Assembly: GCA_031257375.1 (NCBI GenBank)
Contig: JAIROU010000146.1
Coordinates: 1-32,659, forward strand
Source: Bifidobacteriaceae bacterium
Lineage (GTDB): Bacteria; Actinomycetota; Actinomycetes; Actinomycetales; WQXJ01
Direction of reading: 5' to 3'
DNA: 32,659 nt
The number at the start of each line of letters is the position of its first letter. Position 1 is the first letter of the stretch. The translations under genes were made by a program, and so were the position numbers. Below, in pieces: positions 8,210-31,671 of the stretch. The notes beneath the pieces are model-generated. The model saw only the letters and a program-made list of their open reading frames with translations, was not told where the DNA came from and made no database searches.

Positions 8210-8226
8210 AACGGCTCCTATCAGGA

Positions 8227-10164
8227 TCAGGGCAATGCGGCCAAAGCCGCCACCGCGGCCTGCTGGGCGCGGCGGCGGGCGGCGATGCGCCCAGGGCGGG
8301 CGCCCAACGCCGGGTTGAAAGTTTCATCGACCAGGGCGTCCAACTCGGCCTGGGGCAGCGCGCGGTCGATCGCATCGGCCAGGCGGGGCGACGCTTTGAC
8401 GGCGCCGTCGACCAGCTCGGTGTAATGCGCGGCGATGATTTGCGCCAAATGCTCGCGGGTCAGCGCCGCGAACGCCACCAGATGCTCGAACCGGCCGATC
8501 AGCTCCGACGGGAACTCGTTCTCCAAGGCGGCGATCATCGAGCCGCGAGACACGGCCCGCGGGCTGTTTCCGGCGGTGAAACCGACTGGGCGCAAAACGG
8601 TGGTCGCAAGCCTTGAGCCGGCGTTGGTGGTGGCGATGACGATGGCGTGGGAGAAATCCACCACCTTGCCCATGGCGGTGCGCAGATGGCCCTCATCCAA
8701 CACCGACAGGAACAGCTTGTGGATTTGCGGGTGGGCTTTGTCGAACTCGTCCAGCAAAACCACCCTGGTCGGGTTGGCGTCCAAAACGTCGAACGGCAGC
8801 TCGGCCGCCGAGTTGGACCCGATATAGCCTGGGCCAGACCCGACCAGCTTCGAGACATCGTGCTCGTGGGCGTACTCCGACATGTTCAACACGATCGGGT
8901 TCTCGCCGGTCAGATGGCGCGACAGCACCTTGGTCGCCTCGGTTTTGCCGACGCCAGACGGCCCCATCAGCATCCAGGTGGCCGGTTTGCGGTCGTCTGA
9001 GACGCCAAGGTTGACCGACATGAGCGCCACAGCCTGGCTGATCTGATCGATCGCGTCATCTTGGCCGACCAGCCGGTCTTTGAGCTGGGCGGCCAAAGTC
9101 GCCCTCGACGCGGTGGCGATGCCGCGCGAATTGCCGGACACCAAGCGGTGGGCCACCTCGCGCAGCCGCCCCACCGTGATCGGCAGCGGCCCCGCCCGCA
9201 ACGCCGCCACATCCGCGGTCAAATTGGCGGCGGCGCAAGCCGTGTAGTAGTTGACGATCGTGTCGGCCAAAGTCTGGTCCAACAACGTCAACGCCGAATC
9301 AGGCCGATGCTGGTCGGCCCGACGCATCGCGTCGGACACCGCCACCACCTGCTCGACCAAAGCGTCGTCCACAGAGGTCAAACCGCCGTGGTGGGCCACC
9401 AGGCGCGGCGCCGCCTCGCGCAAGATGGCGACAGTCTGGCCGGGGGTCAACTCGTCGACCTGCAACGTGGAAAACCGGCGCGTGAACGCCGGGTCGGCCG
9501 TCAAAGCCTTCAACTCGCCAACCGTGGTCGCCCCGATGACGGCGATGTCGCCACGCGCCAACGCCGGCTTCAAGATTTGGGCGATCTTCGAGTACATCGG
9601 CGACGTGTCGCCCGACAGTTGGTGGATCTCGTCGATGAAAATGATGGCCGCGTTGTCCGGGTCGGCCGCGAACTCGATGGCCCGCAGCACTTTGGCCTCC
9701 AACTGGCCGACCAGGGAGCAACCGGCCACCAAGGCGGCCAGTGGCAACTCGAAAATGGTTTTAAACGCCAACGCGGCGGGCACGCGCGGATCGCCGTCGG
9801 CTATCATCGCCGCCAACGCCTCGACCACCCGCGTCTTGCCGACGCCGGCCGGCCCCACCAACAGCGGGTTCGGCTTCCAACGCCGGGTCAGCACCGCCAT
9901 CACCTGGCGGATCAAACCGTCGCGGAACAAAGTCTGCCCGGTGGTGCGGGCGAACTTCTCGTTGTAGTCGATCAGAATGTCCAGCTCGTCGCTCCCGTCC
10001 GGGTTGAAGCCCGGCGGCGGGGCGAACGGGCCGCCCCCAGCCTGGGCGAGAATGCTCGCCACCGCCTGGGCGTTCGCGCCAGACCCCGCCGCCCCGCCGG
10101 CGCCGGGATTGCCGGGATCGTCGTCAGCCGGGTCGGCGGGGTTGGTGAAATCGGTCAAAGGCAT
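8227..10164 (-). CDS. ClpA/ClpB-like AAA+ ATPase with two nucleotide-binding domains
   Basis: 645 aa. LLVGPAGVGKTRVVEALA, IIFIDEIHQLSGD, then second AAA: MLMGPSGVGKTEATKVLSRHL, RVVLLDEFDKAHPQIHKLFLSVLDEGHLR. SD AAGGAG. Confidence 0.9.
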   Translation of the reverse strand: MPLTDFTNPADPADDDPGNPGAGGAAGSGANAQAVASILAQAGGGPFAPPPGFNPDGSDELDILIDYNEKFARTTGQTLFRDGLIRQVMAVLTRRWKPNPLLVGPAGVGKTRVVEALAAMIADGDPRVPAALAFKTIFELPLAALVAGCSLVGQLEAKVLRAIEFAADPDNAAIIFIDEIHQLSGDTSPMYSKIAQILKPALARGDIAVIGATTVGELKALTADPAFTRRFSTLQVDELTPGQTVAILREAAPRLVAHHGGLTSVDDALVEQVVAVSDAMRRADQHRPDSALTLLDQTLADTIVNYYTACAAANLTADVAALRAGPLPITVGRLREVAHRLVSGNSRGIATASRATLAAQLKDRLVGQDDAIDQISQAVALMSVNLGVSDDRKPATWMLMGPSGVGKTEATKVLSRHLTGENPIVLNMSEYAHEHDVSKLVGSGPGYIGSNSAAELPFDVLDANPTRVVLLDEFDKAHPQIHKLFLSVLDEGHLRTAMGKVVDFSHAIVIATTNAGSRLATTVLRPVGFTAGNSPRAVSRGSMIAALENEFPSELIGRFEHLVAFAALTREHLAQIIAAHYTELVDGAVKASPRLADAIDRALPQAELDALVDETFNPALGARPGRIAARRRAQQAAVAALAALP

Positions 10165-10209
10165 GGGGTGCTCCTTGCGTCGAAAGGTGGATTGGATTGG
10201 CGGGGGCGC

Positions 10210-11901
10210 TCATCGCATGGCGATGAAACGGCTCCCGATCGTCGGCTCAACAGCCAGGCAGGCTGTGGCAAACTTTTTGGCGTTGGCGCAGATCCTGTGC
10301 CAAGGCATGTTCGTCGCCGGAAGGTAGTACAGCGATTTGGGGTGCGGGCCGTCGCCGACCGCCGGAGTCCACTCGAAATCGGTCACCATGATGTTGATCC
10401 GCTTGCGGCGGGTTTTCGAGGCGTTGATGTGCGTCCACACCTGGGCGAAATCGGTTCCGCCAGTCACCTTGGGCAGCTTGGAGATGGCCCGCCACATCTG
10501 CGCGGGGCGCATCTTCGAGGTTGGGACGCACGCCTCCTGCGAAAGCTGGCGGCTGAACGACGAGACGTACAAATCGACATCGAGCCGCTTGGCGATGGCG
10601 ATGACCGCTTGGACAGCCGCCCGGTAGTCGCCTTCAGACATCGAGCCCGAGGTGTCGATGTAGATGTGCAAGTCGGGCAGATAGTCAACCCGCTGGGTTT
10701 GGCCTGGGACGTTGTGGTTCAACGGGTCGCGGCGCGAAGCCCTGGTGAACGACGTGCGCCTGGTCTTGGTCAGATTGCGCGAGACCGCCACCGACTTGGC
10801 GTGGCCGATCAATGAGATCGCCGCCGCCACCATGTTGGCCTTGGACGGCGCCTGCTTGGCGAACTTGATTTTGGCGGCTTTCGCCACCCGGTCGCCGCGC
10901 AGGTGCAAAGATTGGACCGCCAAAATGCGCTGCTGGTCGCGCGCCTGGGCCACCAAGCCGCCGATGTCTTTGAACGACAGCACCGTCGGCTTGTTCAACA
11001 TATTGGCCAGCAAGCGCCAATCCTCGGCCACAGTCGCCGGGTCGGCGTGGACTGTGGTGTCCAGGCACAAAATCGTGACAACCGTCGGCGTGATCATCTG
11101 CCCCAACCGGGTCGGGATCACATGCGTCCCGCCGGCGCCGGTCAGCGCCTCGGTGGCGATGCGCGCGAAACCCAGCGGGGTCAGATCGTCGAACAGGTTG
11201 TTGCGCAGCGCCACCGCCTCGATGGTGGAGCGCGGGGCCAATTTGAGGCTGGCCAACGCCTCCAGCTTGTCGGCCACCTCGGCGTCCAGCCAAGGCATGG
11301 CGGCGATTTCGGCCCTGATCTTGTCCCGCACGCGGTCGAACGCCTCCCAGGTGTCCACTGTCACAACCAGCGTGTTGACACTGGAGGCGACCGTGAACGC
11401 CAATGCCGCCGACAGCTTGTCGACCCCCTCCCGCAAGTCGGCGGCACTGGTCGCGCCCAAAATCGACGCGGCCCCGTCGAACACGTCGGCCATGGTGTAG
11501 ATGACGCGCGAATCGGGCAGCCCCGACGGCAGCCCCCACCGCAGCCGGCCCGCCGCCTGAACGGCCGGCGCGGCGTCGAACTGGGACGAGGCGCCCGTGT
11601 CCAGCGGGCGGTAGTTGGCCAGCGTGGCGGCGCCCAGCTCCAACATGATCTCGTTCGGCTCCACATCGACCAGCCGGGCGCCGCGGGTCAAACCGAGCGC
11701 CCGACCGGCCAAGTCGGCGATCTGGTCGGCGTCCAAAACCTCGCCCGCGTCGGTTGAGATCGCCGCCGGGGCGCCGGGCGCGAGCGGCCTGGTGATCGGG
11801 GCGACCACCAGGTCGCGCAAACGCTGGTCGACATCCCAGTCCAAGGCCGCGTCAAACCCCAAGACCGGCAGCGGGCCGGGAAGCTGGTTGGACACTCGCA
11901 T
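10210..11901 (-). CDS. VWA-domain (CobT-like) protein
   Basis: 563 aa. MIDAS-type DLHIYIDTSGSMSEGDYRAAVQAVIAIAKRLDVDLYVSSFS near the C-terminus; adjacent to a MoxR-like gene. Confidence 0.8.
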   Translation of the reverse strand: MRVSNQLPGPLPVLGFDAALDWDVDQRLRDLVVAPITRPLAPGAPAAISTDAGEVLDADQIADLAGRALGLTRGARLVDVEPNEIMLELGAATLANYRPLDTGASSQFDAAPAVQAAGRLRWGLPSGLPDSRVIYTMADVFDGAASILGATSAADLREGVDKLSAALAFTVASSVNTLVVTVDTWEAFDRVRDKIRAEIAAMPWLDAEVADKLEALASLKLAPRSTIEAVALRNNLFDDLTPLGFARIATEALTGAGGTHVIPTRLGQMITPTVVTILCLDTTVHADPATVAEDWRLLANMLNKPTVLSFKDIGGLVAQARDQQRILAVQSLHLRGDRVAKAAKIKFAKQAPSKANMVAAAISLIGHAKSVAVSRNLTKTRRTSFTRASRRDPLNHNVPGQTQRVDYLPDLHIYIDTSGSMSEGDYRAAVQAVIAIAKRLDVDLYVSSFSRQLSQEACVPTSKMRPAQMWRAISKLPKVTGGTDFAQVWTHINASKTRRKRINIMVTDFEWTPAVGDGPHPKSLYYLPATNMPWHRICANAKKFATACLAVEPTIGSRFIAMR

Positions 11902-11917
11902 GATTGGCCACCGCCTC

Positions 11918-13120
11918 TCAGGTCAAAGTTTGGGCGACGTTGACAAACTGCGCCAACTGCTCGCTGGGGTGGGCCGCCAGCGCGCTCTCCACCGTCGCGA
12001 TGTGCTCGGGCAAGATTTGGCTGTTGGTCAGCGCGGAGATCATCTGCCGCAAATCGACTTCGACGCCGTTCGCCAGAATCGCGGTCACCAGCCGCGAATC
12101 GACATCGTTTCTGGTCATGGCGAAAGCCAGCACCTGGCCGCGCTCGGCGGAAGACAAGCTCCCAAGCAGCTTTTCGCGGGCGGTGTTGGTGGCGGCGGCC
12201 ATGATGTCGTCCCAAGTGTCCGGCTGCGGGATGATCGGGGTGGTCGGCGCGCCGGCCGTCCCGGCGGCCTTGTTCATCTGCGCGATGATGTCCTCGTAGA
12301 CGGCGGTGGCGAACTCGGTCTTGCCCAAGTGCCCTTGGACTGCGGCGCCCAGCACCGTGACATCGCCCGAGGCGACCGTGGTCGCCATGGCGGTGAGCGC
12401 GCCAGCCTTGCTGGCGGCTTGCAGCCAGCGGTTGAAAGCGTCGATGGTGCGGGGCGTGGTGATCTGGCGGACAGTGTGAACTTGGTCGCCCACGTAATCC
12501 GAGTCGTCGAATTCGATCTCGGGCGCCTCGAACACATGGTCCGCCTGGGTGCGCAAAGCCTTGGCGATCGACGGGTGCAGCCCCGCGTCGCAAGCGTCCA
12601 AATAGGATTTCAGCACAGCGGCGTCCGCCTCCACATGGTAAATGCTGAAACGCGACACGGAGGCGTCGTCGAACGCCGCCACATTGCCGGAGTCGTTGCC
12701 CGCCACGATCAGCCGCAAGTTGTCGGGCAGCTTCTTGGTGCCGATGCGGCGCAACAGCACCAGCGACAGCAAAGCCGACTGCACGTCGCCGGGGCAGCGG
12801 GTGATCTCGTCCAAAAACAAGATCGGCCGCTCGTCCGGGTGGTCGGCGGCGTAATCAGCCGCCGTGGCGATATCCACGTGCGGGTAGAAGACCTGCGTGT
12901 AATCGGCGCCGCCGGCCACCGACACCAAACGGGCGCCAGTCAGATCCTCTTTGACGGCCAGCAGGTTCGCGGCCAAGGTGAAGGCGCGGGTCCCCAGTTC
13001 GGCCGCCAACGCCTCGATGAAAGACGACTTGCCGACACCGGGCGGGCCGATCAACGCGGGAACCGCGCCGGTGGCGAGATCAAGGGTTAGAACATCTTTG
13101 AGATGCTGGTCGAAAAACAT
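11918..13120 (-). CDS. MoxR-like AAA+ ATPase
   Basis: ALIGPPGVGKSSFIEALAAEL, RPILFLDEITRCPGDVQSALLSLV. Preferred start MFFDQHLKDVLTL at 13120, with GGAGG upstream; the track start at 13186 looks over-extended. Confidence 0.88.
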   Translation of the reverse strand: MFFDQHLKDVLTLDLATGAVPALIGPPGVGKSSFIEALAAELGTRAFTLAANLLAVKEDLTGARLVSVAGGADYTQVFYPHVDIATAADYAADHPDERPILFLDEITRCPGDVQSALLSLVLLRRIGTKKLPDNLRLIVAGNDSGNVAAFDDASVSRFSIYHVEADAAVLKSYLDACDAGLHPSIAKALRTQADHVFEAPEIEFDDSDYVGDQVHTVRQITTPRTIDAFNRWLQAASKAGALTAMATTVASGDVTVLGAAVQGHLGKTEFATAVYEDIIAQMNKAAGTAGAPTTPIIPQPDTWDDIMAAATNTAREKLLGSLSSAERGQVLAFAMTRNDVDSRLVTAILANGVEVDLRQMISALTNSQILPEHIATVESALAAHPSEQLAQFVNVAQTLT

Positions 13121-13219
13121 GGATGGGTGCCTCCGCAAAAGGTCGGGGATGTGGATAGGGGGTCGACCTGGGCCGCCACCCGCCAAGGACGGCGGACGGC
13201 GGCCCAGGTCGCGCCGCGC

Positions 13220-13900
13220 TCAGTCCCAGCCGCTGGAGGCGGCCGTCGCCGGGGCGGTCGGGGCGGCCGGGGTTGCGCCGTCGCCCCACGGGTCGCCCAG
13301 CGCGGACGGGGCCGGCTCGGGGGCGGGCTCGGCCGGAGCCGGCTCGACAACCGTCAAGCCCAGCCCGCGCAGAGTCTCGACCGCCGACCCGATGGTTTGC
13401 GGCTCGAAGAACTTGGCCTGGTCCATGACCAGAACCGCGTCCAGGCCGACGCCGTTCGACTGGTTCTTCTCCGAGTAGAAGACTGTGAACACCAGTCGCA
13501 CCCGCAGGCCGGAGTCCAGCTCCCGGTCGTCCTCGATGGGCGCGAACTGCGAGTGGCCCAAGAACTGGTAGCGGCTGGGCGGGAAGTTGGCCACGGCGTC
13601 GAAGCTGAAACCGGTGCGCCCGGCGTTCTTGCCCGTCTTGTGGGCGAAAAAGCGCTCGGCGATGTACTGCTCTTCCAGCGAGGGGACCGCGCCGAGTTGG
13701 ACGACCTTCGGGTCCAGCACCGAAATCGTGTAGTACGGCTCGGTGGTGGGGTAGCGCTGCCCCGCCTGGCGGTTGGAGGCGACCCGCTTGGCGAGGTCCT
13801 CGCCCTCGTAACGGGTGACCAGGCGCGAGAACGCCAAGACGCCTTCGACCACCATGGTGGCCTTTGGCGTCAACTGGTCCGATTTGAATTGATGTGCCAT
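13220..13900 (-). CDS. Hypothetical protein, possibly ssDNA-binding-like
   Basis: 226 aa. Globular N-terminal part, then an Ala/Pro-rich linker and acidic/aromatic tail (...DPWGDGATPAAPTAPATAASSGWD), an SSB-like organisation; context of replication/repair genes. Confidence 0.6.
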   Translation of the reverse strand: MAHQFKSDQLTPKATMVVEGVLAFSRLVTRYEGEDLAKRVASNRQAGQRYPTTEPYYTISVLDPKVVQLGAVPSLEEQYIAERFFAHKTGKNAGRTGFSFDAVANFPPSRYQFLGHSQFAPIEDDRELDSGLRVRLVFTVFYSEKNQSNGVGLDAVLVMDQAKFFEPQTIGSAVETLRGLGLTVVEPAPAEPAPEPAPSALGDPWGDGATPAAPTAPATAASSGWD

Positions 13901-13959
13901 AGTGCTATGGGCCTTTCTGTGGGAGTTCCCACCTCAATGAAGAAAAGATCAAACCCAGG

Positions 13960-14739
13960 ATGAGCAGACCTTGTGTGTACAACGAGTTCGACTCGTTGAT
14001 CGCGCGCCCGGTGTTCACCGCCGAGCATCTGGGGATCAGCGCCCCGGCGGTGTTCGACCCGACATGCCCGATGTGCCGCGCGGCGTCCCCCGGCACGGCG
14101 AGGCCGGCGGGGTCGAAGGCGCAGCAAGCCGTCCACCGGCTGGCCGACATCAAGCTGATGGCGGCCACCATCGAGGCGGCGACCGACCAAGGCTCCCCGA
14201 TGGCCCGCGATTTCGCCGAAGAGCGCCTTTGGGCGCACACCCAGGCCCTCAAACACGAGCCGGAGTTGGCGCCGCTGGGCGAGCTTCTGCTGGCGTTGAC
14301 CACCAGCCCGGATGGTGAAACCCACCTCTACCAGTCCAGGTCGGGCCAAGCCCGCTGGGCTTTGACACGGGTGGCGGACATGCTCCAAGAGCGCCGCCAC
14401 GCCAGGCACGCGCCCCACGGCGGCTTCGACCCGACGGCGGGCGACGGGCGTTGGCTCGCCGCCTACCGCCACATCGTGGCCACCGGCCTGTGGGCCGGAC
14501 CCAGCCGCCGCCGGATCGCCCAGGCGCTGGCCGAGGCCGACCACCGCCCCCGACCGCCAGACCACACGGCCGCCGAGCTGGCCTGCTACGCCACACAGCC
14601 GGTTTGGGCTGTGGACGCCACCTCGCGCGGGGTGGTGGAGGCCGCCAACAACATGATGCGAAGCATCGTCCAGATGGTTGTCACCAGGGCCTGCGTCTTT
14701 AGCGACGGCGCTTGTTGGAGGCGCCCGCCACAGAGTTGA
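13960..14739 (+). CDS. Hypothetical protein with CPMC motif
   Basis: 259 aa ORF (MSRPCVYNEFDSLIARPVFTAEHLG...FDPTCPMCRAA) divergent from the 13900 gene and overlapping the 3' end of the SNF2-like gene tail to tail. Confidence 0.55.
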   Translation: MSRPCVYNEFDSLIARPVFTAEHLGISAPAVFDPTCPMCRAASPGTARPAGSKAQQAVHRLADIKLMAATIEAATDQGSPMARDFAEERLWAHTQALKHEPELAPLGELLLALTTSPDGETHLYQSRSGQARWALTRVADMLQERRHARHAPHGGFDPTAGDGRWLAAYRHIVATGLWAGPSRRRIAQALAEADHRPRPPDHTAAELACYATQPVWAVDATSRGVVEAANNMMRSIVQMVVTRACVFSDGACWRRPPQS

Positions 14740-16219
14740 TCTGCGCCTGGGTGTAGGCGACGGCCGCCGCCAGCAACTCGCCTTGCGAGGCGAGCTTGGT
14801 TTTCAACCGCGGATGCAACGCCATGTCGATCGTGTCCTGGCAGACCAGCAACGTGATCTCAACCTGGCCCGGCTGGCCCAACCGGGCCAGGCGGCCATTG
14901 GTTTGCGAAAAATGCTCAGAGCTGTCCGGCAAAGTGAACCACACCAGGTGGCGGCCGCCTTGCTGAAGGTTGAGGCCGCGGCCCGACGAGGCCGGTTGGA
15001 CCAGCATGACCGGTATCGACCTGGCGTTCCAGCGGTCCACCATGGCGGGCGAGCCGTCGAACACCTCGGCCCGAATGCCCGCGCCAGCCAGCCGCTCGGG
15101 TATCCGGGCCGAATCCGACCGGAACCGGTAAGCCACCAGCACCGGGGTGTCGGCCTGCTTGACGATCTCGGCCAGAGCCTCGATTTTGGCGTCGTGGACC
15201 GAGATGTAGTCCCGCTCCCGGCTCGACGGGTCAGACCCGATCGGATAACAGGTGCCGGACGCCAGTTGCAGCAGCCGGGCGCGCAAGATGGCGGCGTTGT
15301 CCGCCGTGATCACCTCCCCGGCCAGCTCGACGACCAGGTCGCGCTTCAACTTCTCGTAAAAGCCTCGGGCCGCCGGCGGGATCGACACAAACCGGCGGCG
15401 GACGACCGGCGGCTTGGCGCTCACAGGGACATCCACCGACATCGCCAGATGGGCGCAAGCCCGGTGGATTTGCCCGAGCGCCCCAGGGACCGGCTCCCAT
15501 TTGACCGGCCGCCTGCCGCCATGGCCGTCGGGGATGGTTTGGGCGACATAGAAAAACCGGTCGCGGAAAGCGGTGAACCGCCTCCCCAGCGCGGCCCCGC
15601 CGTCAAGCAGGAACACCTGGCTCCACAAGTCGGCGATGTTTTGCGGCGTTGGGCTGCCGGTCAATTGGATCATGCGGCTGATCTGGTCGCGCACCTTGAA
15701 CAAGGCTTTGACGCGCTCGGCGCGGGGGTTTTTGAAATCCTGCGCCTCATCGACCACCACCGTCGGAAACGGCCAAGGCGACGACCGCTTGGCCTGCTGC
15801 CAACGCCCCACCAGCGCCACCACCTGATCGCGGGACGCCAGCCAAACGGCGGGCGGCGTCGACGGGTCGAACGCGGCGTCAAACTCGGCGTCGCGGGCCT
15901 GGGGCGCCAAACGCTTGCCAAAACGCTTCGAGGCCGGGTCCAGCACTGTGACAAACGAGCGCAGGTTGGCCGTGATGCCCCATTTCGCCAATTCGGACGG
16001 CCACGAGTTGGCCGACACCTGCAAAGGCGCGATGATCAACGTGTGCCCCGGCGGCCGGAGAAGTTTCAACGCCGCCAAAGCGACGCGCGTCTTGGCGCCG
16101 CCGATAGCCACCCAGATCGCAGCTTTCGGATGGGTCAAAATGAAATCCAAGGCTTGGACCTGGTGGTCGAGCATCCCCGCCGTCAACTTGTCGCGCACGG
16201 CGGGGACACCCCCTCTCAC
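14699..16219 (-). CDS. SNF2/SF2-like helicase (phage type)
   Basis: IWVAIGGAKTRVALAALKLL (Walker A-like), TLIIAPLQVSANSWPSEL, TVVVDEAQDFKNP, MIQLTGSPTPQNIADLWSQVFLLD, C-terminal MLVQPASSGRGLNLQQGG...SQTNGRLARLGQPG. Probable GTG start at 16219 overlapping the upstream stop (GTGA); ORF extends to 16234. Confidence 0.87.
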   Translation of the reverse strand: MRGGVPAVRDKLTAGMLDHQVQALDFILTHPKAAIWVAIGGAKTRVALAALKLLRPPGHTLIIAPLQVSANSWPSELAKWGITANLRSFVTVLDPASKRFGKRLAPQARDAEFDAAFDPSTPPAVWLASRDQVVALVGRWQQAKRSSPWPFPTVVVDEAQDFKNPRAERVKALFKVRDQISRMIQLTGSPTPQNIADLWSQVFLLDGGAALGRRFTAFRDRFFYVAQTIPDGHGGRRPVKWEPVPGALGQIHRACAHLAMSVDVPVSAKPPVVRRRFVSIPPAARGFYEKLKRDLVVELAGEVITADNAAILRARLLQLASGTCYPIGSDPSSRERDYISVHDAKIEALAEIVKQADTPVLVAYRFRSDSARIPERLAGAGIRAEVFDGSPAMVDRWNARSIPVMLVQPASSGRGLNLQQGGRHLVWFTLPDSSEHFSQTNGRLARLGQPGQVEITLLVCQDTIDMALHPRLKTKLASQGELLAAAVAYTQAQINSVAGASNKRRR

Positions 16220-16590
16220 CCCAGTTGGGGGCACGTCACATCCATCACACCCATCGTGTAGGCGATGGCGGTCTGCACCAGTTCGGCGTTGCGCGGGTTC
16301 AAGCCAGTCAAATCGGCCAGCGATATCGGGCGGTTCGCGTCCAGCAGCGACGCCGCCACGCTGACGATCTTCTGCTTCTCGGCGGGGAAAAACCTGATCG
16401 GCCCCAACAGCTTGGACACGTCGATATCCACCCGCGGCTCAGGCGGTTGGCCGTCAACTTGAATCCAAGGGGCGTCCGGGTAGATCACCTCTTTGCCCAA
16501 CGCGGAGATCAGCAGGTTGTACGCCGCGTGCTCGGCCTGATTGTGGTGCTTGGACCACAGCAGCAAGGATTCCAACTCCACCTGTCTCAC
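16216..16590 (-). CDS. Hypothetical protein
   Basis: Start inferred at GTG 16590 (VRQVELESLLLWSKHHNQAEHAAYNLL...), overlapping the upstream gene's TGA at 16587-16589 (GTGA); ORF in track extends to 17010 in antisense-like sequence. Confidence 0.65.
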   Translation of the reverse strand: MRQVELESLLLWSKHHNQAEHAAYNLLISALGKEVIYPDAPWIQVDGQPPEPRVDIDVSKLLGPIRFFPAEKQKIVSVAASLLDANRPISLADLTGLNPRNAELVQTAIAYTMGVMDVTCPQLG

Positions 16591-20248: not shown

Positions 20249-20890
20249 TCAAACATCGGCCACCAGGCCTGGAGGGTGTTTGCCTTGCCGAATGCTCACA
20301 GCGCGAACGCTTGTGACGCGCTCGGCCCCGCCGTCGCCAAAGGCGGCCTGATGCTGGCGCCTGGCCTGATCCCGGCTGTCAGCCCGCCAGCGGCGTGTCG
20401 CGGTCGGGGTCTCAACCTCGTAGACGGGATCGAGGGAGGCCACGGCCCAGCGCAGGCGTTTGACCGCGGAGTCAAGCCCGAGCCGCGAGGCCAGCTCGAT
20501 CTTGGCCTCCATCTCGTCCACGGTGGCCGAATCGGGCCACATGTCGTTTGACACGTCGAGGTCGAGCACCGGCAGCATCGGCTCGTTTTGCACCACACCG
20601 TTTTCGACCAGCGTGTAAAAATCGCCCGACGGGTTGACCAGATCTTGATGGGCGGCCAGGTCGCATCCGGCGGAACGCGCCACGGCTTGGACCGCCGCCG
20701 CCAAGGTGGCCAATTGGCCGCCCACGACCTGGGTCATCCGGTCGAAGCAGGCGGCGCAAACCGGGGCGCCGACCCGGCTTGGCGCGACCTGGGCGCCGCA
20801 CCAAGCCGGACGGCCGGGCAAAAACTCGTTCTCGCACGGCAGATGCCGAACAGGCGAATCAGGGGGCGGGCTTTCACCGATCGGCGTCAT
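20249..20890 (-). CDS. Hypothetical protein, probably translationally coupled to the tandem core-binding gene
   Basis: ATG 20890 overlaps the TGA of the upstream gene (ATGA). C-terminal LRWAVASLDPVYEVETPTATRRWRADSRDQARRQHQAAFGDG shared with the pseudogene at 31133-31671. Confidence 0.7.
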   Translation of the reverse strand: MTPIGESPPPDSPVRHLPCENEFLPGRPAWCGAQVAPSRVGAPVCAACFDRMTQVVGGQLATLAAAVQAVARSAGCDLAAHQDLVNPSGDFYTLVENGVVQNEPMLPVLDLDVSNDMWPDSATVDEMEAKIELASRLGLDSAVKRLRWAVASLDPVYEVETPTATRRWRADSRDQARRQHQAAFGDGGAERVTSVRAVSIRQGKHPPGLVADV

Positions 20891-22455
20891 AGTGTTCCCC
20901 CTCCGACAATCTCCAAGCAACGCGCGACATCATCCAGCCGATAGAGCTTGATCCGGTCGGGGCCGTAGGCGCCAACCGGTCGCAGATCCCGCCAAGCCTC
21001 GCCGATAGAAACCAGCCTTGGCGCGTCAAATGCCGCCTCGTCGCACCAAGGGCAATTCTTGGCCGGGCCAGGCTCAGCCGGGACGCGCCCGGCAAAGTCG
21101 TCCAACGGGCTGGCCTCGATGCGACCGGCGTTCACAGCCCAGTTGAAAAAGCGCCTTACCGCCGTGTCCTCTTGCCCGGTGGCATGGGCGGCGCACTCAT
21201 CGCTGGTCAACCAGGCGCGCAAATCATCACCGGTCAAACTCCAAGGCGAGCGGCCGGGGAAAAAGTCGCGCAACGGGTTGAGTTTCATCCGATAGCAGTT
21301 CACCGTGGCGACAGACAAACCTTCGACCACTATGGCGTTAGACCAGGCCCTAACCGGCTCGGCCCAAAAATCCCGGCTTTTAGGCGGGCGTTTGGCCGGG
21401 CCGTGTTTGACCGGGGCGTCCAACGGGCTGACTTCGATCTGGCCGGTGTCCACGCCCCAATCGAAGAAGCGCTTCAAGGCGATCTCTATCGGGGCGCTGT
21501 TGGTGACGCTGTTGTCTCTGGCCAACCAGGCGCGCAAATCATCATCGGTCAAACTCCAAGGCGAACGGTTGGCGAAAAACTTGCGCAACGAGCTCAAGCA
21601 TCCCCGATAGGTGCGGATCGTGGAAACCGACAAACCCTCGTCGAACATGGCGTCAGACCAAGCCCTGGCCGACTCAATCCAAAGATTGCCGTTTTTGGAC
21701 CGGCGCTTGGCCGAGCGTTTGGCGGGCCTGATCTGGACCTTGGTCGACTTGGCTTTCGGCTTGGCCGGTTCAGCCGGTTTGGCCGAAGGTCCGGCCGAGA
21801 ATTCAAGCGGATTAGAATCGGTTCGGCCTGCGGCCACAGCCCAGTTGAAAAAACGCCGCATCAACCAGCGCATCCGTTTGCGGTGCTCGTCAGACCAAGT
21901 GGTCGCCTCAAACCAGGCGTCCAACTCGGCGGCGGTCAAATCCCACGGGGAGCGCTCGGGGAAACTTTTCCGCAGCAGGCTGAACGACTGCTCGTAGCAA
22001 CGCATGGAGGCGGCGGACAAACCCCGCCCGCCCAGATGCGCCAGCCAATCCGCGATTGGTTTGGCCCAAAGGTCGCTTGGCGCCGGGTTCAACGCCACCC
22101 GCACATCGACGCTGACCGACGCGGTTTGCCGCCGCGGGGCGGCGGGCCGGGCGCGAAAGCCGGAGTTCGGCGCCGCCGGGTTGGACGCGACCAAAGCCTT
22201 GTCCGCCGCCCATCTGTAGAAATGGTCTAACGCTATGCGCGAGTCGACCGCCTGGGCGCCGCCCAGTTCAGCGAGATGGCGGTCGATGTCGCCGTCGGTG
22301 ATCGACCACGGCGAGCGTTGCGCGAACGCGCGGGAGAAACGGTTGAGACAATCCTGGTAGATCAGCAGAAGCTGAGCGCCAAGATTGCCGCGATAAGCCG
22401 ACGACCATTCGGCTATCGCGTTCGCCCATTCCAATGAGCCCAATGTTTTGGGCAT
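20887..22455 (-). CDS. Protein of four tandem tyrosine-recombinase core-binding (SAM-like/XerC-D N-terminal type) domains, no catalytic domain
   Basis: Start MPKTLGSLEWANAIAEW at 22455 with perfect AAAGGAGG. Four units such as GLSVSTIRTYRGCLSSLRKFFANRSPWSLTDDDLRAWL...IALKRFFDWGVDTGQIEVSPLD. No R...HxxR...Y catalytic signature follows; short CPWC-containing C-terminus. Confidence 0.85.
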   Translation of the reverse strand: MPKTLGSLEWANAIAEWSSAYRGNLGAQLLLIYQDCLNRFSRAFAQRSPWSITDGDIDRHLAELGGAQAVDSRIALDHFYRWAADKALVASNPAAPNSGFRARPAAPRRQTASVSVDVRVALNPAPSDLWAKPIADWLAHLGGRGLSAASMRCYEQSFSLLRKSFPERSPWDLTAAELDAWFEATTWSDEHRKRMRWLMRRFFNWAVAAGRTDSNPLEFSAGPSAKPAEPAKPKAKSTKVQIRPAKRSAKRRSKNGNLWIESARAWSDAMFDEGLSVSTIRTYRGCLSSLRKFFANRSPWSLTDDDLRAWLARDNSVTNSAPIEIALKRFFDWGVDTGQIEVSPLDAPVKHGPAKRPPKSRDFWAEPVRAWSNAIVVEGLSVATVNCYRMKLNPLRDFFPGRSPWSLTGDDLRAWLTSDECAAHATGQEDTAVRRFFNWAVNAGRIEASPLDDFAGRVPAEPGPAKNCPWCDEAAFDAPRLVSIGEAWRDLRPVGAYGPDRIKLYRLDDVARCLEIVGGGTL

Positions 22456-22475
22456 GGTTTCCTCCTTTGTGATAG

Positions 22476-22577
22476 ATAAACCTTGCAATCGTCGACCTGA
22501 AAGGGCATGGTTTGGCATCGCCGACCCGAATTTGATCCATTTATGCCGGGGCGGTTTAGCTGGTAATTGACGAATTG
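22476..22577 (+). repeat. Leader-like copy A preceding array block 1
   Basis: ATAAACCTTGCAATCGTCGACCTGAAAGG..GGTTTGGCATCGCCGACCCGAATTTGATCCATTTATGCCGGGG aligns with copy B at 22857-22973. Confidence 0.75.
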
Positions 22578-23199
22578 TTGGACATTTGGCTCCCTGCCCA
22601 CTGGGCCACACCGATTGTTGTGAGACGATTACGACTTGAAATTGGACATTTGGCTCCCTGTCCACTGGGCCACACTTTCTCCACAATCTCAAAGAGTGGC
22701 AGTTGGATATTTGACGCCCTGCCCACCGGGCCATACCTCAATCTTTCCCAAAGGAATGCTGGTTGGACACTTGGCACCCTGCCCACTGGGCCACGCTGAC
22801 ATTAAATTGGACATTTGGCGTCCTGCCCACTGGACTACACCGATTGTTGTGAGACGGTAAACCTTGCAGTCATCAATTGGAAAGGATGTGGTTCGACGTT
22901 GCCGACACGAACTTGATCTATTTACACCGGGGTGTCGCTTTGATCAGCCGTTTAGCTCGCGATCGATCAGTTATTGGACATTTGGCACCCTGCCCACTGG
23001 GCCACACTTGACCACGCGATCCACAATCAGCTTCACGTTGGACACTTGGTTCCCTGTCCACTGGGCCACACCAACATAGGCTTATCACGTTCCTGGTCGA
23101 ATTGGACATTTGGTTCCCTGTCCACTGGGCCACACCTGACCACGCGACCTATGTCAATCCAAGGTTGGACATTTGGTTCCCTGTCCACTGGGCCACACT
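22578..23199 (+). CRISPR. CRISPR-like array: nine degenerate 35-bp direct repeats in two blocks (five, then four)
   Basis: Units at 22578, 22642, 22703, 22763, 22807, 22974, 23038, 23102, 23165; consensus TTGGACATTTGGCTCCCTGYCCACTGGGCCACACY. Intervals mostly 25-29 bp (exceptions 9 bp and the 132-bp interval holding leader B). Lies on the Cas12m-like gene side of the locus. Repeats are imperfect and no cas1/cas2 is seen, so the CRISPR assignment is not certain. Confidence 0.6.
22857..22973 (+). repeat. Leader-like copy B preceding array block 2
   Basis: GTAAACCTTGCAGTCATCAATTGGAAAGG..GGTTCGACGTTGCCGACACGAACTTGATCTATTTACACCGGGG, clearly homologous to copy A. Confidence 0.75.
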
Positions 23200-23223: not shown

Positions 23224-24474
23224 TTATATTGGGCATTTGGCGCCCTTGCGCCAGTTCGCGACTTTTTGTTCGAACGCCCAAGGCGAGGGCGGGCAGCCGG
23301 GCGCGTTCTTAGCCACGACTTTGGCGACCTCGGCCATCGTTTCCGCGCGCAATTCGTATGCGTGGCCGAGGCCGAGAGTGAGGGCGTCAATGATGTTGTC
23401 GATGTTTTGCCAAGTCCACAGGTGCCCGAAGGCGGCGGGGATGAGCGCGGCTTTGCCATCGTTCCACTCGCCCAGCCAACCCCCGGCGCTGGTCCAGCGC
23501 CAGACGAATCGGCCGTCGGTCAAGACTTCGACTTGACGGGCCAAAGAATCCCAATCGGAGTCTTCTAGAACCTCGAACATGAACTTGCGCCGGGAGTGCA
23601 ACATCAATGAGGCCGCGGCTTTGGCCGTGCTCTGATGGATTTGGACGGTCGCGGGGCCGAGCCGATGGCCGTAGCTGAGCGTCTTGGCGTCCCGGTCGAA
23701 CCAGGCGTTGGTCTCGTTCGCCAGCAGTTTCAGCGCGGCTCTGACGCGCGATTCCTCGGTGTTAGGGGTCGTCACTACGGCGCAGCGCATGACCTGGCCG
23801 CGTGGCGGGTTGATGGTCACGACCCAAGTGGTCTGCTCTGGAGTCGGCGGCGGATTCTCACGCCAGGCTGGGACCATTTGGACGAACTGCTCTGGACTAT
23901 CGGGACAGCCAAGGCCGCCCTCGGCCAAGCGGGCGACCACCGCCGCCGCTCGGCCCGGCGCAGATTTGAAGCGCCCCCAAGCCAGACGGCGGATCTGGCA
24001 AACTCCCCACAGGTGGCCGAAAATGGCGGGGACGAGCGCCCAGCCGTCTCGTCCAGTCCATCCGCCGCCGCTGTTCCACTCCCAGGCGAACTCGCCCGGC
24101 CCGCGCAACTCTTCAACCGCAAGGGCCAGTTCCGCCCAAGTCGGCTCATCGAGCGTTTTCAAACGGCAACCGTCCATCTTGAAGAATGCGGTCTCGTTGA
24201 TCAACGTGGCCGCGGCTGGGCCGGGGAGGGCTCTGGGGTACAAACCCCCGAAATAGTTGTCATTTCGGTCTCGGACTTCGTTCCAAGAGTCGAAGCTGGC
24301 GCGTGGGTCACATGTCAAGGCGCGGGCGGCGGCCAACTCGCCGGGGCGGCGGTCGGGCCAAGCGGATTGAACGGCCCACTCGTTTTTCGAGAAAGGGCCG
24401 ATGCGCAGCTCGGTCAAATCTTGATAATGACGGCGAGTGAACAAAGAGTAAGCGCAAATATGTTGGTCAGACAT
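23224..24474 (-). CDS. Hypothetical protein with two Trp-rich internal repeats, between cas12m-like gene and array
   Basis: Start MSDQHICAYSLFTRRHYQ at 24474 after GGAG. Repeats: GEFAWEWNSGGGWTGRDGWALVPAIFGHLWGVCQI and GRFVWRWTSAGGWLGEWNDGKAALIPAAFGHLWTWQNI. Confidence 0.75.
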   Translation of the reverse strand: MSDQHICAYSLFTRRHYQDLTELRIGPFSKNEWAVQSAWPDRRPGELAAARALTCDPRASFDSWNEVRDRNDNYFGGLYPRALPGPAAATLINETAFFKMDGCRLKTLDEPTWAELALAVEELRGPGEFAWEWNSGGGWTGRDGWALVPAIFGHLWGVCQIRRLAWGRFKSAPGRAAAVVARLAEGGLGCPDSPEQFVQMVPAWRENPPPTPEQTTWVVTINPPRGQVMRCAVVTTPNTEESRVRAALKLLANETNAWFDRDAKTLSYGHRLGPATVQIHQSTAKAAASLMLHSRRKFMFEVLEDSDWDSLARQVEVLTDGRFVWRWTSAGGWLGEWNDGKAALIPAAFGHLWTWQNIDNIIDALTLGLGHAYELRAETMAEVAKVVAKNAPGCPPSPWAFEQKVANWRKGAKCPI

Positions 24475-24572
24475 TTTTCTCCATCTCGGGCACTCGGTCG
24501 GGCTTTGGCCAACACCTCGACCGTGGTCTCGTTCAGCGCGCGCCAAGTGGAACGAGGCTTTGATCGCCCGGT

Positions 24573-26492
24573 TCACGATGTCGCGGCCAGTTTTCGGCTC
24601 AAATGGGCCAAGGCGTTTTCCCCTTGGTCGTAGCGCTGGCCGCAGCCGTCGCATTCGACGACGCGATTCCACGAACGCCCATCGGCGGGGTTGACGACGC
24701 CGCAAGCGATATGCCGCCGGGTCGAATGGGCTGAGTCCAAATTCACCACGGCGACACCTTCGCGGGCGCAAGCCTGGGCGATGGCCAGGCGCAGCGAGCC
24801 CGACGCCGCCAACATCCGCTGCGACGACGCTTGGTCTTCGACCGCGGCGGGCACGTCGTGATCGGTTGACGAGCCGGGCTTGCGCTCGGCGACGCCCGCT
24901 AAATCCAAGTCGACCAAGCCGACGCGCCCGGCCTGCCGGGCGAACATGGCGGCGATGTTGCGATATGCCCACTCGCGGCGCAGCACGGCGCGACGGCGGG
25001 TCAACGCCTCGCGCGTGTGAAGCCGGCGATGGTTGTCCGCCCAGTTGGCAAGGTTTTCGACCAGATCGGAAGCGTCAGGCGGGGGGTTTTCCGCCCAGGC
25101 CTGAGCCAAGCGGATGAGCCGGTTTGGGTTTTTCCACCCGGCAACGCGAACGGCGGTCAAGGTGGCTTCGTCGCGGCTGGTCGGATCGGTGATCGTGTCA
25201 ACTTCTTTGAGCCATTCGACCAAACCAGCCAACACGGCGTTGAAAGCCAAATCCATGCGTGAGCGCATCCGGTCGGCCGCGGCGAACCGGTCAAGCAGCG
25301 CTTTCGGCAAAACAACAATTCCAGCGGTCTTGTTCCGGTCAACCAGCATGTACTCGCGCAAATTGTCCGGCACCTCGATCGGGCTGGTCGACGACCATTG
25401 GGCGACCCCGTTGGAGTTTCGCCGGCCGGCCTGGGCCAAAGCCTCGCCTTCTTTGCGCCAAGTCCAGCGCACAACCACGTCTGGCCCGCCATCGACCGGT
25501 TCGGGGTCGGGCAGTCGGGCGGTGACGTGGATCACAGCTTTGGTCTTCGAGCCGTAACGGCGCACGGTCAGTTTGGCGCCTGTGATCTCAGCCTCAAGCG
25601 GCAGCATGCGGTGGGCTTGGACTGGTATCTCCAACACGCCCTGGCCGGCGGTGGCATGGCCTTTGACGCCCCCGATTCGCATGCGGACAGGCAAGCGCCC
25701 GGCTTGGCGGCGCTGCGATGGCGTCATTCGCTCCCAGACGGCCGGATCGGTCCAAGGCATTGAGAAGGTGTTGCGGTGGGGGCCGTTCGCCTCGCCCACG
25801 GCCGATGGCGAACGCGGGGCCTTGGCCAAGGTCGGCCTGACCTCGACGGCCAGAGTGCCCTCGCCGGTGTAGCGATGATGGCGGAACTGGGGCCAGCGCG
25901 GTTTGGGCTGGCTCCCTTTGACCGGCGCCTTGGCCAGCTCGCGGCGGGCTTTGGCGATTCGCTTGGCAGCCGCCTCGTGGTGGGTTTTCACCTCGTGAAA
26001 AGTTCCCCAGTACAAGTAGATGGTCCGGCCGTCGCGATCAACCACGCCCTGCTGGCAATATTTGCCGTACAAAGCCTTTTGGGCGTCGTAAAACTCTTGA
26101 TTGAGGGCCGCGAACTGATCGGCGGCGATGGCGTAAACCCGCTTCTTCTCATCGCTCAGATCGCGGCGCAGCCGTCGCAGATCGGCTTCGGCGGTTTTGA
26201 GGACGGCCACCTCGGGTCCGCTGGCCCGGTTTGACCGCGTTCTCACTTTCAACGCTTTCACATCGTCTTCGGCTTTCACCTTGGCCGCGAGGGCGATCGC
26301 CAAATCGGCCTCAACCGCGGCGACGGCGGGATAAGACGACCAAACCGCTTTCACAGCCGCCTCATAGGCCAGTGTTTGCGAAACCAAGTCCTCGCGCAGG
26401 TTGTGGGCCAGCCACAGTTGGTCGGTCACCGCCTTGGGCAGGCGGCGCGACCATTTGTGGTGAACGCCGAGCGTCTCAACGATAACAGCCAT
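24573..26492 (-). CDS. cas12m: Cas12m-like (type V-M, formerly V-U1) CRISPR effector
   Basis: 639 aa from ATG 26492. MAVIVETLGVHHKWSRRLPKAVTDQLWLAHNLREDLVSQTLAYEAAVKAVWSSYP strongly resembles the recalled N-terminus of Mycolicibacterium Cas12m; also RHHRYTGEGTLAVEV, WTDPAVWERMTPSQRRQAGRLPVRMR, CGVVNPADGRSWNRVVECDGCGQRYDQGENALAHL (zinc-ribbon plus RuvC-III). Confidence 0.87.
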   Translation of the reverse strand: MAVIVETLGVHHKWSRRLPKAVTDQLWLAHNLREDLVSQTLAYEAAVKAVWSSYPAVAAVEADLAIALAAKVKAEDDVKALKVRTRSNRASGPEVAVLKTAEADLRRLRRDLSDEKKRVYAIAADQFAALNQEFYDAQKALYGKYCQQGVVDRDGRTIYLYWGTFHEVKTHHEAAAKRIAKARRELAKAPVKGSQPKPRWPQFRHHRYTGEGTLAVEVRPTLAKAPRSPSAVGEANGPHRNTFSMPWTDPAVWERMTPSQRRQAGRLPVRMRIGGVKGHATAGQGVLEIPVQAHRMLPLEAEITGAKLTVRRYGSKTKAVIHVTARLPDPEPVDGGPDVVVRWTWRKEGEALAQAGRRNSNGVAQWSSTSPIEVPDNLREYMLVDRNKTAGIVVLPKALLDRFAAADRMRSRMDLAFNAVLAGLVEWLKEVDTITDPTSRDEATLTAVRVAGWKNPNRLIRLAQAWAENPPPDASDLVENLANWADNHRRLHTREALTRRRAVLRREWAYRNIAAMFARQAGRVGLVDLDLAGVAERKPGSSTDHDVPAAVEDQASSQRMLAASGSLRLAIAQACAREGVAVVNLDSAHSTRRHIACGVVNPADGRSWNRVVECDGCGQRYDQGENALAHLSRKLAATS

Positions 26493-26560
26493 GGGGACGA
26501 CCTTTCTGATCGGGAAGGCAAGTTGGATCAAAGATGATTGGCATGGTCGCGGTCGAAGGT

Positions 26561-27118
26561 TTATCGGCGTTTCAACCGTCGGTTTGCCTTGGCGAGTCGA
26601 GTGGCGGCCCAATCCGCGCCTTCCAACCAAGGCTCGATTTCGAAACCGAAACACTCCGTCGGCGGCTCACCGTCCACACAGAGCATGATCTTGTCGGGGT
26701 CTGAAGGATGCGACCGCGCGTGGATCGGCAAGCCGTCGGCCTCAAGGTTTTCCACGAGCCACAGCGCGTCAACAGCTCTGCCCCTAGGCGCCGATGGTGT
26801 GGCCGAACTGTCTTTTTCAAGTTCGGCCGCACCGTTTGCGCCAGTCGCGAGGCGCGCTTGATGTTTAAACGCGCGAGCGACAAAAAACCACACGAGACCG
26901 GTCAAGGCGAACATTGCCACGAAGCTGACACCTAATCGGGCGAGCAACGGCTCCAAACGCTCCAGGAAGGCTGGTCCGTCCCAGCCAGACCCGTCGGCGG
27001 CGGGCTTGAATGTGACGGCCAAAAAGATGACTCCGACCGGTATCAGGCTGACCAGAACAATGGCCAACGTGTTGGGGATGTGGGCGGTGTTGAACCGCTT
27101 GTCGGATGTGGTTGGCAT
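26561..27118 (-). CDS. Hypothetical membrane protein
   Basis: MPTTSDKRFNTAHIPNTLAIVLVSLIPVGVIFLAVTF..., second hydrophobic segment FVAMFALTGLVWFFVARAF; SD AAAGGAG. Confidence 0.65.
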   Translation of the reverse strand: MPTTSDKRFNTAHIPNTLAIVLVSLIPVGVIFLAVTFKPAADGSGWDGPAFLERLEPLLARLGVSFVAMFALTGLVWFFVARAFKHQARLATGANGAAELEKDSSATPSAPRGRAVDALWLVENLEADGLPIHARSHPSDPDKIMLCVDGEPPTECFGFEIEPWLEGADWAATRLAKANRRLKRR

Positions 27119-28278: not shown

Positions 28279-28563
28279 TCATTGGGCGCGGCGGTCTCGG
28301 AGCAAGGCTTCGCGCTCGTTAACGGTTAGCCCGCCCCAAATGCCGTGAACCTCATTGGCGGTCAAGGCGTAGTCCAAGCAGTCTGAGCAGACCGGGCAGT
28401 GGGCGCAAACCGTTTTGGCGTCGAACGGTTGGCCGCCAGGCTCGGGGAAGAAAATCTCAGGATCGGTTTGGGCGCACACCGCGCTGTCCCGCCACGTCTC
28501 GGCCAAGTCGATTGGGAAAGCGGTTGCGACGTGGGTCAGGCGGGCGCCGCGTTGAGACGGCAT
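28279..28563 (-). CDS. WhiB-like Fe-S regulatory protein
   Basis: WRDSAVCAQTDPEIFFPEPGG...VCAHCPVCSDCLDYALTANEVHGIWGGLTVNERE: four-Cys pattern and G[VI]WGG motif. Confidence 0.93.
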   Translation of the reverse strand: MPSQRGARLTHVATAFPIDLAETWRDSAVCAQTDPEIFFPEPGGQPFDAKTVCAHCPVCSDCLDYALTANEVHGIWGGLTVNEREALLRDRRAQ

Positions 28564-28983
28564 CAGACTGCCGCCTTGAGACGGGCGTCGGCGACCAAGA
28601 CTTCGACCAGATCCATGTCGTCGCCGGTCTCGGGGTCGATCAAAGTGCCGCATTCGGTGATGTCAGACACCGGCTGGTGGAAGATTTCCCCAGCCGGGCT
28701 TCGATAGACCAAGGTGATGTCGCCCAGCGGGAAGCTGGTTTGGGCCAACCGGGCTTGCTCAAAACCGGAGTCTTGGGCGTCGGCCCGCCCGTCGTCCCAG
28801 TCGTCTTCGATCCGGTCAAGCATCGGGCCGAGATAGCTGTCCCACAGCTCGTCTTCGTTCCCCAGGTCGCGGACCATCGCCGCCGCCCGGCGGGCGCCCC
28901 GGTCGTCCATGACATCGGCGACAGCCTCCACCAATGACGACCCTTCGGTCAGCGGTGGGTTGATAGAGATTTGCATTGCCATG
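28563..28983 (-). CDS. Hypothetical protein upstream of and coupled to WhiB
   Basis: MAMQISINPPLTEGSSLVEAVADVMDD..., TGA overlaps the WhiB ATG (TGATG). Confidence 0.6.
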
Positions 28984-31132: not shown

Positions 31133-31671
31133 TCACGGTCGCGATGGGTTTCCCCGGTCGCCGTCCTCATCCAATACGGCCTCGGCGGACGCTTCGCCCG
31201 TCGCTTGCTCTGTTTTCGACGGCGTGTCGGCCCAAATCTCGATGGCTTCAACCTTGTCAACCCGCTCGTTCGGATCGCCGCCGCCAAAGGCGTTCCAATG
31301 CTGCTCAAGGGCGTGGCGGGCGTTGTCGGCCCGCTAGCGGCGCTTGCCCGACGGCGTGGCGACCTCGTAGACCGGCTCAAGATCGGCTATGGCCCGCCGC
31401 AAGCAATCGGCGGTTACGCCAAGCCCAGCTCCAACTCGGCTCGGGCGATCCAGGCCGGCAGATCGCCGTCGGCCAGATCTCGCCGCACGGCTCGGACGGC
31501 GTACTCTGGCCGGCCAGCCCGGCCCGCCGCCACCAGCAGGTCTTCCAGCGGCGCGGCTCGCACCATTTCGATGTCCTCGGCGGTGACTCGGGGCTGGAGG
31601 TCGACGGCATAGACGGCGTAGAGCGCGTCGGCCAGGACGCGCAATTGGGCGCGGGTCAGCGAGGTTGGCAT
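31133..31671 (-). pseudogene. Decayed paralog of the 20249-20890 gene (frameshift plus in-frame TAG)
   Basis: Start ATG 31671 with AGGAGG; frame stops at TAA 31414-31416. The -1 frame continues LGVTADCLRRAIADLEPVYEVATPSGKRR*RADNARHALEQHWNAFGGGDP..., with TAG (31334-31336) at the position of Trp TGG in the intact copy. Confidence 0.7.

Follow-up and report, generated by a model that had tools for sequence, protein, structure and literature searches.

What can a protein do that is built from four core-binding (CB) domains of tyrosine recombinases and has no catalytic domain, and does a place beside a CRISPR array bear on that role? The question is raised by a 522-amino-acid (aa) protein encoded on a contig of 32,659 nucleotides (JAIROU010000146.1; its whole length is the window analyzed here) from a Bifidobacteriaceae bacterium, one example from a fragmented genome of 491 contigs. 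The four-CB architecture without a catalytic domain is genuine and unusual. On analogy with known systems, we read the protein, at a probability of roughly 0.48, as a non-catalytic derivative of a tandem-CB recombinase that would serve a mobile element as its regulator or as an accessory that bridges DNA.

The CB gene, its units and its neighbors are located in Table 1. A longer mechanical open reading frame extending to 22734 is mere read-back through the repeats. The Pfam family PF02899 (Phage_int_SAM_1) matched the 522-aa protein with an E value of 1.5e-21 and the longer frame in four stretches with 3.6e-21, a score on the CB protein that is far beyond chance. Pairwise identity among the four units ranges from 26 to 51%, with units 3 and 4 the closest. 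An AlphaFold model of unit 4, computed from an alignment of 52 units, is a helical bundle for which Foldseek returned XerD as the best match, with the CB domains of lambda Int, XerA and phage Brujita Int also near the top (TM 0.63–0.77, probability about 1.0, E values only 0.03–0.2). The top 34 matches were all recombinase-type CB domains, and the modest E values (0.03 and above) are explained by the small size of the 94-residue bundle. By unit-profile sequence match, the nearest solved structure was the integrase of mycobacteriophage Brujita (PDB 5vfz, E 2.3e-10). None of the four units has lost the core signature residues (alignment columns W6, P47, F80, W83 and P94), which fits folded domains, and the whole-protein model shows four confident helical bundles with disordered linkers between them and no fixed overall shape (pTM 0.37). 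Profile and fold together bear out the proposal of the earlier note that the units are four tandem CB (SAM-like) domains of the tyrosine-recombinase (integrase) family.

Table 1 Features of the CB gene and its surroundings in the window.
Feature	Position	Strand	Remarks
Gene 2, 213 aa	20249..20890	−	Start overlaps CB-gene stop (ATGA)
CDS of four-CB protein, 522 aa	20887..22455	−	ATG 22455, TGA 20887-20889
Tail, 68 aa (aa 455-522)	20890..21093	−	CPWC and weakly predicted helix-hairpin-helix
CB unit 4 (aa 361-454)	21094..21375	−	AlphaFold pLDDT 94; XerD TM 0.77; net charge −3
CB unit 3 (aa 256-348)	21412..21690	−	51% identity with unit 4; net charge −3
Linker 2-3 (aa 221-255)	21691..21795	−	Disorder predicted; net charge +11
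CB unit 2 (aa 127-220)	21796..22077	−	Only unit basic at most relative-basic columns; net charge +1
CB unit 1 (aa 5-96)	22168..22443	−	Most divergent; outside the units 2-4 group in tree; net charge −2
Shine-Dalgarno GGAGGA, 5' of CB-gene ATG	22460..22465	−	Identified by sequence
Element A, intergenic/5' UTR region of CB gene	22477..22576	−	Homologous to element B
Type V-M CRISPR arrays A (5 repeats) and B (4 repeats)	22577..23198	−	Probable crRNA strand minus
Element B, second copy, between arrays B and A	22858..22972	−
cas12m	24573..26654	−	PDLC00930 E 2.2e-121; 37% identity to Gordonia otitidis cas12m locus

That no catalytic domain follows the units, as had also been claimed, was confirmed at the level of both protein and contig. 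Thirty-one catalytic domains from relatives were combined in a profile; it had no match in any of the six reading frames of the window (best E 0.88) and did not align with the 68-aa tail, while PF00589 had no match on the contig compared to 16 places elsewhere in the genome. The R-K-H-R-H/W-Y domain that characterizes a tyrosine recombinase is absent from the CB protein and from its contig. A hidden or frameshifted catalytic domain 3' of the units was ruled out, as nothing there matched the catalytic profile. The tail (CPWC...LVSIGEAW...YGPDRIKLYRLDDV) gave no family match in a Pfam search of the 522-aa protein, and its helix-hairpin-helix prediction is of low confidence; by eye it is like GAY.GLRR..I..L...DV, a possible catalytic remnant to which the catalytic profile gives no support.

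Relatives were sought with unit profiles in 296 order-level and 395 class-level genomes. Integrases with a single CB domain were numerous, and 11 further proteins had two (nine proteins) or three (two proteins) CB domains; all 11 of these actinobacterial integrases retain a catalytic domain of about 170–200 aa. No four-CB orthologue appeared in the same searches, and no orthologue of the whole protein was found in 197 order-level genomes, plasmids, phages or viral contigs, the sole match in the plasmid, phage and viral-contig searches being the integrase CB domain of Gordonia phage EricDab (34% over 88 aa). CB reiteration is not itself new, being an existing trait of the integrase family, and two sequential CB domains have been published only for RitA (PMC8138268). 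The earlier statement that a four-fold reiteration of only the DNA-clamping half is undescribed holds in part: reiteration as such has precedents, and four copies without the enzyme are an extreme that among the genomes searched was seen only in this protein. The integrases that combine three CB domains with a catalytic domain go beyond the two-CB case in print, and they point to CB reiteration being commoner among actinobacterial integrases than reported. At one locus, a two-CB integrase directly adjoins another recombinase with a third 2.4 kb off, an arrangement that recalls recombinase-in-trio elements; the genome of the CB gene also has a tandem of three tyrosine recombinases (G000:C252:1885-4298) that resembles such an element.

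In a tree of units built on 91 columns, units 2–4 formed one clade (99/95) and unit 1 stood apart on a very long branch, with little else resolved. The dN/dS ratio between units 3 and 4 is 0.75, which is weak evidence of purifying selection, and the other unit pairs are near saturation. This ratio would fit a relic, a drifting gene left when a deletion deprived a tandem-CB recombinase of its catalytic domain, with a protein that may be made and has no selected function. The same reading is favored by the singleness of the example, by the loss of conserved basic residues in three units, and by CB-only frames elsewhere, of which L017 and L109 are frameshifted integrase copies (L109 has catalytic pieces after the CB part, in other frames) and a piece of L012 is likewise a fragment. 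Against it, 522 codons have stayed open behind a good Shine–Dalgarno sequence, the stop overlaps gene 2 through ATGA, the core residues are intact in every unit, no trace of a catalytic domain lies 3' of the units, and simple decay does not explain the rise to four copies. We consider a relic unlikely, at a somewhat higher probability than the other alternatives.

Residues that would touch DNA were assigned by alignment with relatives and lambda Int. Units 1, 3 and 4 are net negative and unit 2 barely positive (Table 1), compared to a mean net charge of +3.6 in 48 relatives. Seven columns hold a basic residue in most relatives; there, units 1, 2, 3 and 4 keep 2, 5, 1 and 2 basic residues, whereas relatives average 4.4–5.5 by group; the corresponding Mann–Whitney p values of 0.001 and 0.004 are indicative only, as related units were counted as independent. 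At columns 71/74, where lambda Int by alignment has K and R, unit 2 has K/R, unit 1 has V/R, and units 3 and 4 have A/G and E/D. All four units have Tyr at column 30, a basic position in relatives; this says little alone since lambda Int has Tyr there too, as do Xer proteins. The linkers carry net charges of +4, +11 (between units 2 and 3) and +4, and the protein has a pI of 9.4. Judged from sequence, unit 2 and the +11 linker are likely DNA contacts. This pattern of charges and basic residues makes a symmetric four-fold DNA clamp unlikely, and one or two predicted DNA-holding points combined with other modules more likely.

The same charges bear on a second alternative, in which CB bundles that no longer bind DNA serve as a scaffold, a series of docking sites for another element protein or for a partner recombinase. 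Three net-negative units, set against the positive mean of the relatives, together with a preserved hydrophobic core, agree with such a protein-interaction role, while the basic unit 2 and linkers, the chief reputation of CB domains as DNA-binding modules and the lack of a partner recombinase on the contig speak against it; we regard a pure scaffold as quite improbable.

The neighborhood on the other side of the gene start raises the question of a CRISPR role. Single repeats fold no better than shuffles, so the orientation of the arrays rests on likeness to other cas12m repeats and on the position of a matching 3' stem. In global alignments, the 35-nt repeats resemble the repeat of a mycobacterial cas12m locus when both are read on the same relative strand, a similarity reached by 12 of 5000 shuffles (790 of 5000 for the opposite strand); against the Gordonia repeat alone, the orientation signal is weak (221 of 5000). 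A 6-bp stem lies 2 nt from the repeat 3' end, a position shared with the repeat of Gordonia otitidis. The crRNA strand is thus most likely the minus strand, co-directional with cas12m, and the minus-strand order is gene X, array B, element B, array A, element A and CB gene. Read in this direction, the supposed leaders would lie 3' of their arrays. Element A amounts to no more than the CB gene's own 5' region; element B is placed between the arrays and could still serve array A. Type V-M systems are enriched on plasmids and work by binding, not cutting (PMC11656645, PMC11013384), which explains how one could share a mobile element with recombinase-type genes.

Several features of the arrays may be recorded here. 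The 16-bp sequence CGATTGTTGTGAGACG (plus strand) occurs at 22612-22627 and 22841-22856, next to the initial repeat in array A and next to the repeat beside element B. This recurrence suggests that the second element/array block is a product of duplication. One of the spacers measures only 9 nt, and two spacers in array B (23008-23164) end alike on the crRNA strand, in GGATCGCGTGGTCAA and GGTCGCGTGGTCAG, with no source found; searches of plasmids and phages with spacers and arrays gave nothing credible. Consensus searches found no promoters in elements A and B, and Rfam had no match over 18–32.7 kb. Gene X (23224-24633, minus strand), between the arrays and cas12m, has no family match and contains two copies of a module of about 110 aa (38% identical, E 4e-16). 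Its 3' end (...RKGAKCPI-stop, 23224-23246, minus strand) overlaps a degenerate repeat; there, AAGGGCGCCAAATGCCCAAT is similar to the 3' portion of the 35-nt repeat, and a spacer-length gap separates it from the next repeat.

The earlier note had placed the gene start about 20 bp from an array leader and proposed a multivalent array- or leader-binding protein. The distance is right, as 21 bp separate the ATG from element A (at 22477), and the label of leader is doubtful in view of the minus-strand reading. A protein binding CRISPR repeats or leader, for type V-M regulation or spacer acquisition, could draw on this proximity to an element duplicated beside both arrays, on nine direct repeats that could suit a multi-domain binder, on the lack of a recognized adaptation gene among the proteins scanned, and on MrpR, which binds a repeated element (PMC10516654). 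The comparative evidence goes the other way. No CB-unit match was found in nine other cas12m neighborhoods (mycobacteria and Gordonia, up to 10 kb each side), so the conserved linkage that would mark a type V-M accessory or adaptation protein was seen in 0 of 9, and on two mapped plasmids the nearest PF02899 match lay about 15 kb from cas12m. Array orientation places the proposed leaders on the 3' side, the element next to the gene is that gene's own 5' region, three of the four units have lost the conserved basic residues, and the linkage was seen once. On the refuting condition set in the earlier note, homologs that are never associated with such arrays, the array idea fails at the nine loci, though the homologs found include no true four-unit one. 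We therefore think an array or leader binder improbable; the position of the CB gene beside the CRISPR array looks coincidental rather than functional and illustrates how a one-off position can hint at a link without comparative backing. A further version, in which the multiplied, enzyme-stripped CB module would form a multivalent DNA-bridging protein, recognize the adjacent reiterated CRISPR or element DNA and control a mobile type V-M system without its own adaptation genes, is very improbable indeed.

The wider surroundings present a mobile-element picture. The CB gene heads a minus-strand run of mobile-element-type genes that continues with gene 2 and small genes without an assigned family. 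GC content drops near 18 kb, with values of about 0.66 before and about 0.61 after, the C-terminal motif of gene 2 recurs at 31235-31447 (minus strand), a WhiB gene lies at 28279-28653, and an IS605 OrfB runs from 31689 to the contig end. Neither a tRNA nor a recombinase is present on the contig. An operon at 5483-16234 (minus strand) with a UvrD-type helicase, AAA/VWA/MoxR-like proteins and an SNF2-type helicase has the look of a possible defence island.

Within this setting, the preferred reading of a DNA-bridging accessory or regulator would run as follows. The origin would be a tyrosine recombinase with tandem CB domains on a mobile element, an ancestor made plausible by the 11 relatives with two or three CB domains and a catalytic domain. 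The CB half would have multiplied to four, with units 2–4 arising by in-situ duplication, and the catalytic half would have been lost or swapped for a short unrelated tail, leaving a protein that cannot recombine DNA. What remains would most likely be a flexible, bead-on-string DNA-binding accessory that grips DNA through unit 2 and the strongly basic linkers, while the less basic units 1, 3 and 4 may hold partners, other copies of the CB protein, or DNA more weakly. The outcome would be bridging of sites on the element and, by analogy to MrpR/YopR, probably regulation of its own minus-strand gene cluster or help in recombination or maintenance of the element. The architecture, the fold, the missing catalytic domain, the residue loss and the gene arrangement are observed; DNA binding, bridging and regulation are roles we infer.

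Among known systems, the integrases of Brujita (PDB 5vfz) and EricDab differ from the CB protein in having a single CB domain and an active catalytic domain. The tandem-CB actinobacterial integrases share with it the CB family by profile, the reiteration and the bacterial class, and differ in their own catalytic domain, in having at most three CB domains and in their mostly basic units. RitA of recombinase-in-trio (RIT) elements also carries sequential CB domains in one protein (PMC8138268), two of them with a catalytic domain and within a trio, unlike the four here with no catalytic domain and no other recombinase on the contig. Tfp (SE) and GinC (GInt elements) are recombinase-like proteins with a CB region from which the RHRY residues are missing; they are encoded beside active recombinases in a conserved four-gene module (PMC10214605) that is absent from the CB-gene contig by PF00589 search. 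SroF of Phi3T (PDB 9rd5; Foldseek TM 0.64 to unit 4) and MrpR/YopR of SPbeta are, like the CB protein, mobile-element proteins with a recombinase-type CB fold. MrpR is the strongest published parallel: it retains the tyrosine-recombinase fold, has lost recombinase function and has become the master repressor of SPbeta (PMC10516654), a DNA-binding regulator whose CB domain, as in the CB protein, comes without the recombinase residues. MrpR differs in having one CB domain, no tandem units and a degenerate catalytic-domain fold, to which the 68-aa tail, with no alignment to the catalytic profile, offers no counterpart. Tyrosine recombinases are thus known to lose catalysis and become regulators, and the CB protein, if our reading is true, would be a more extreme case, with the catalytic half gone and the DNA-gripping half present four times.
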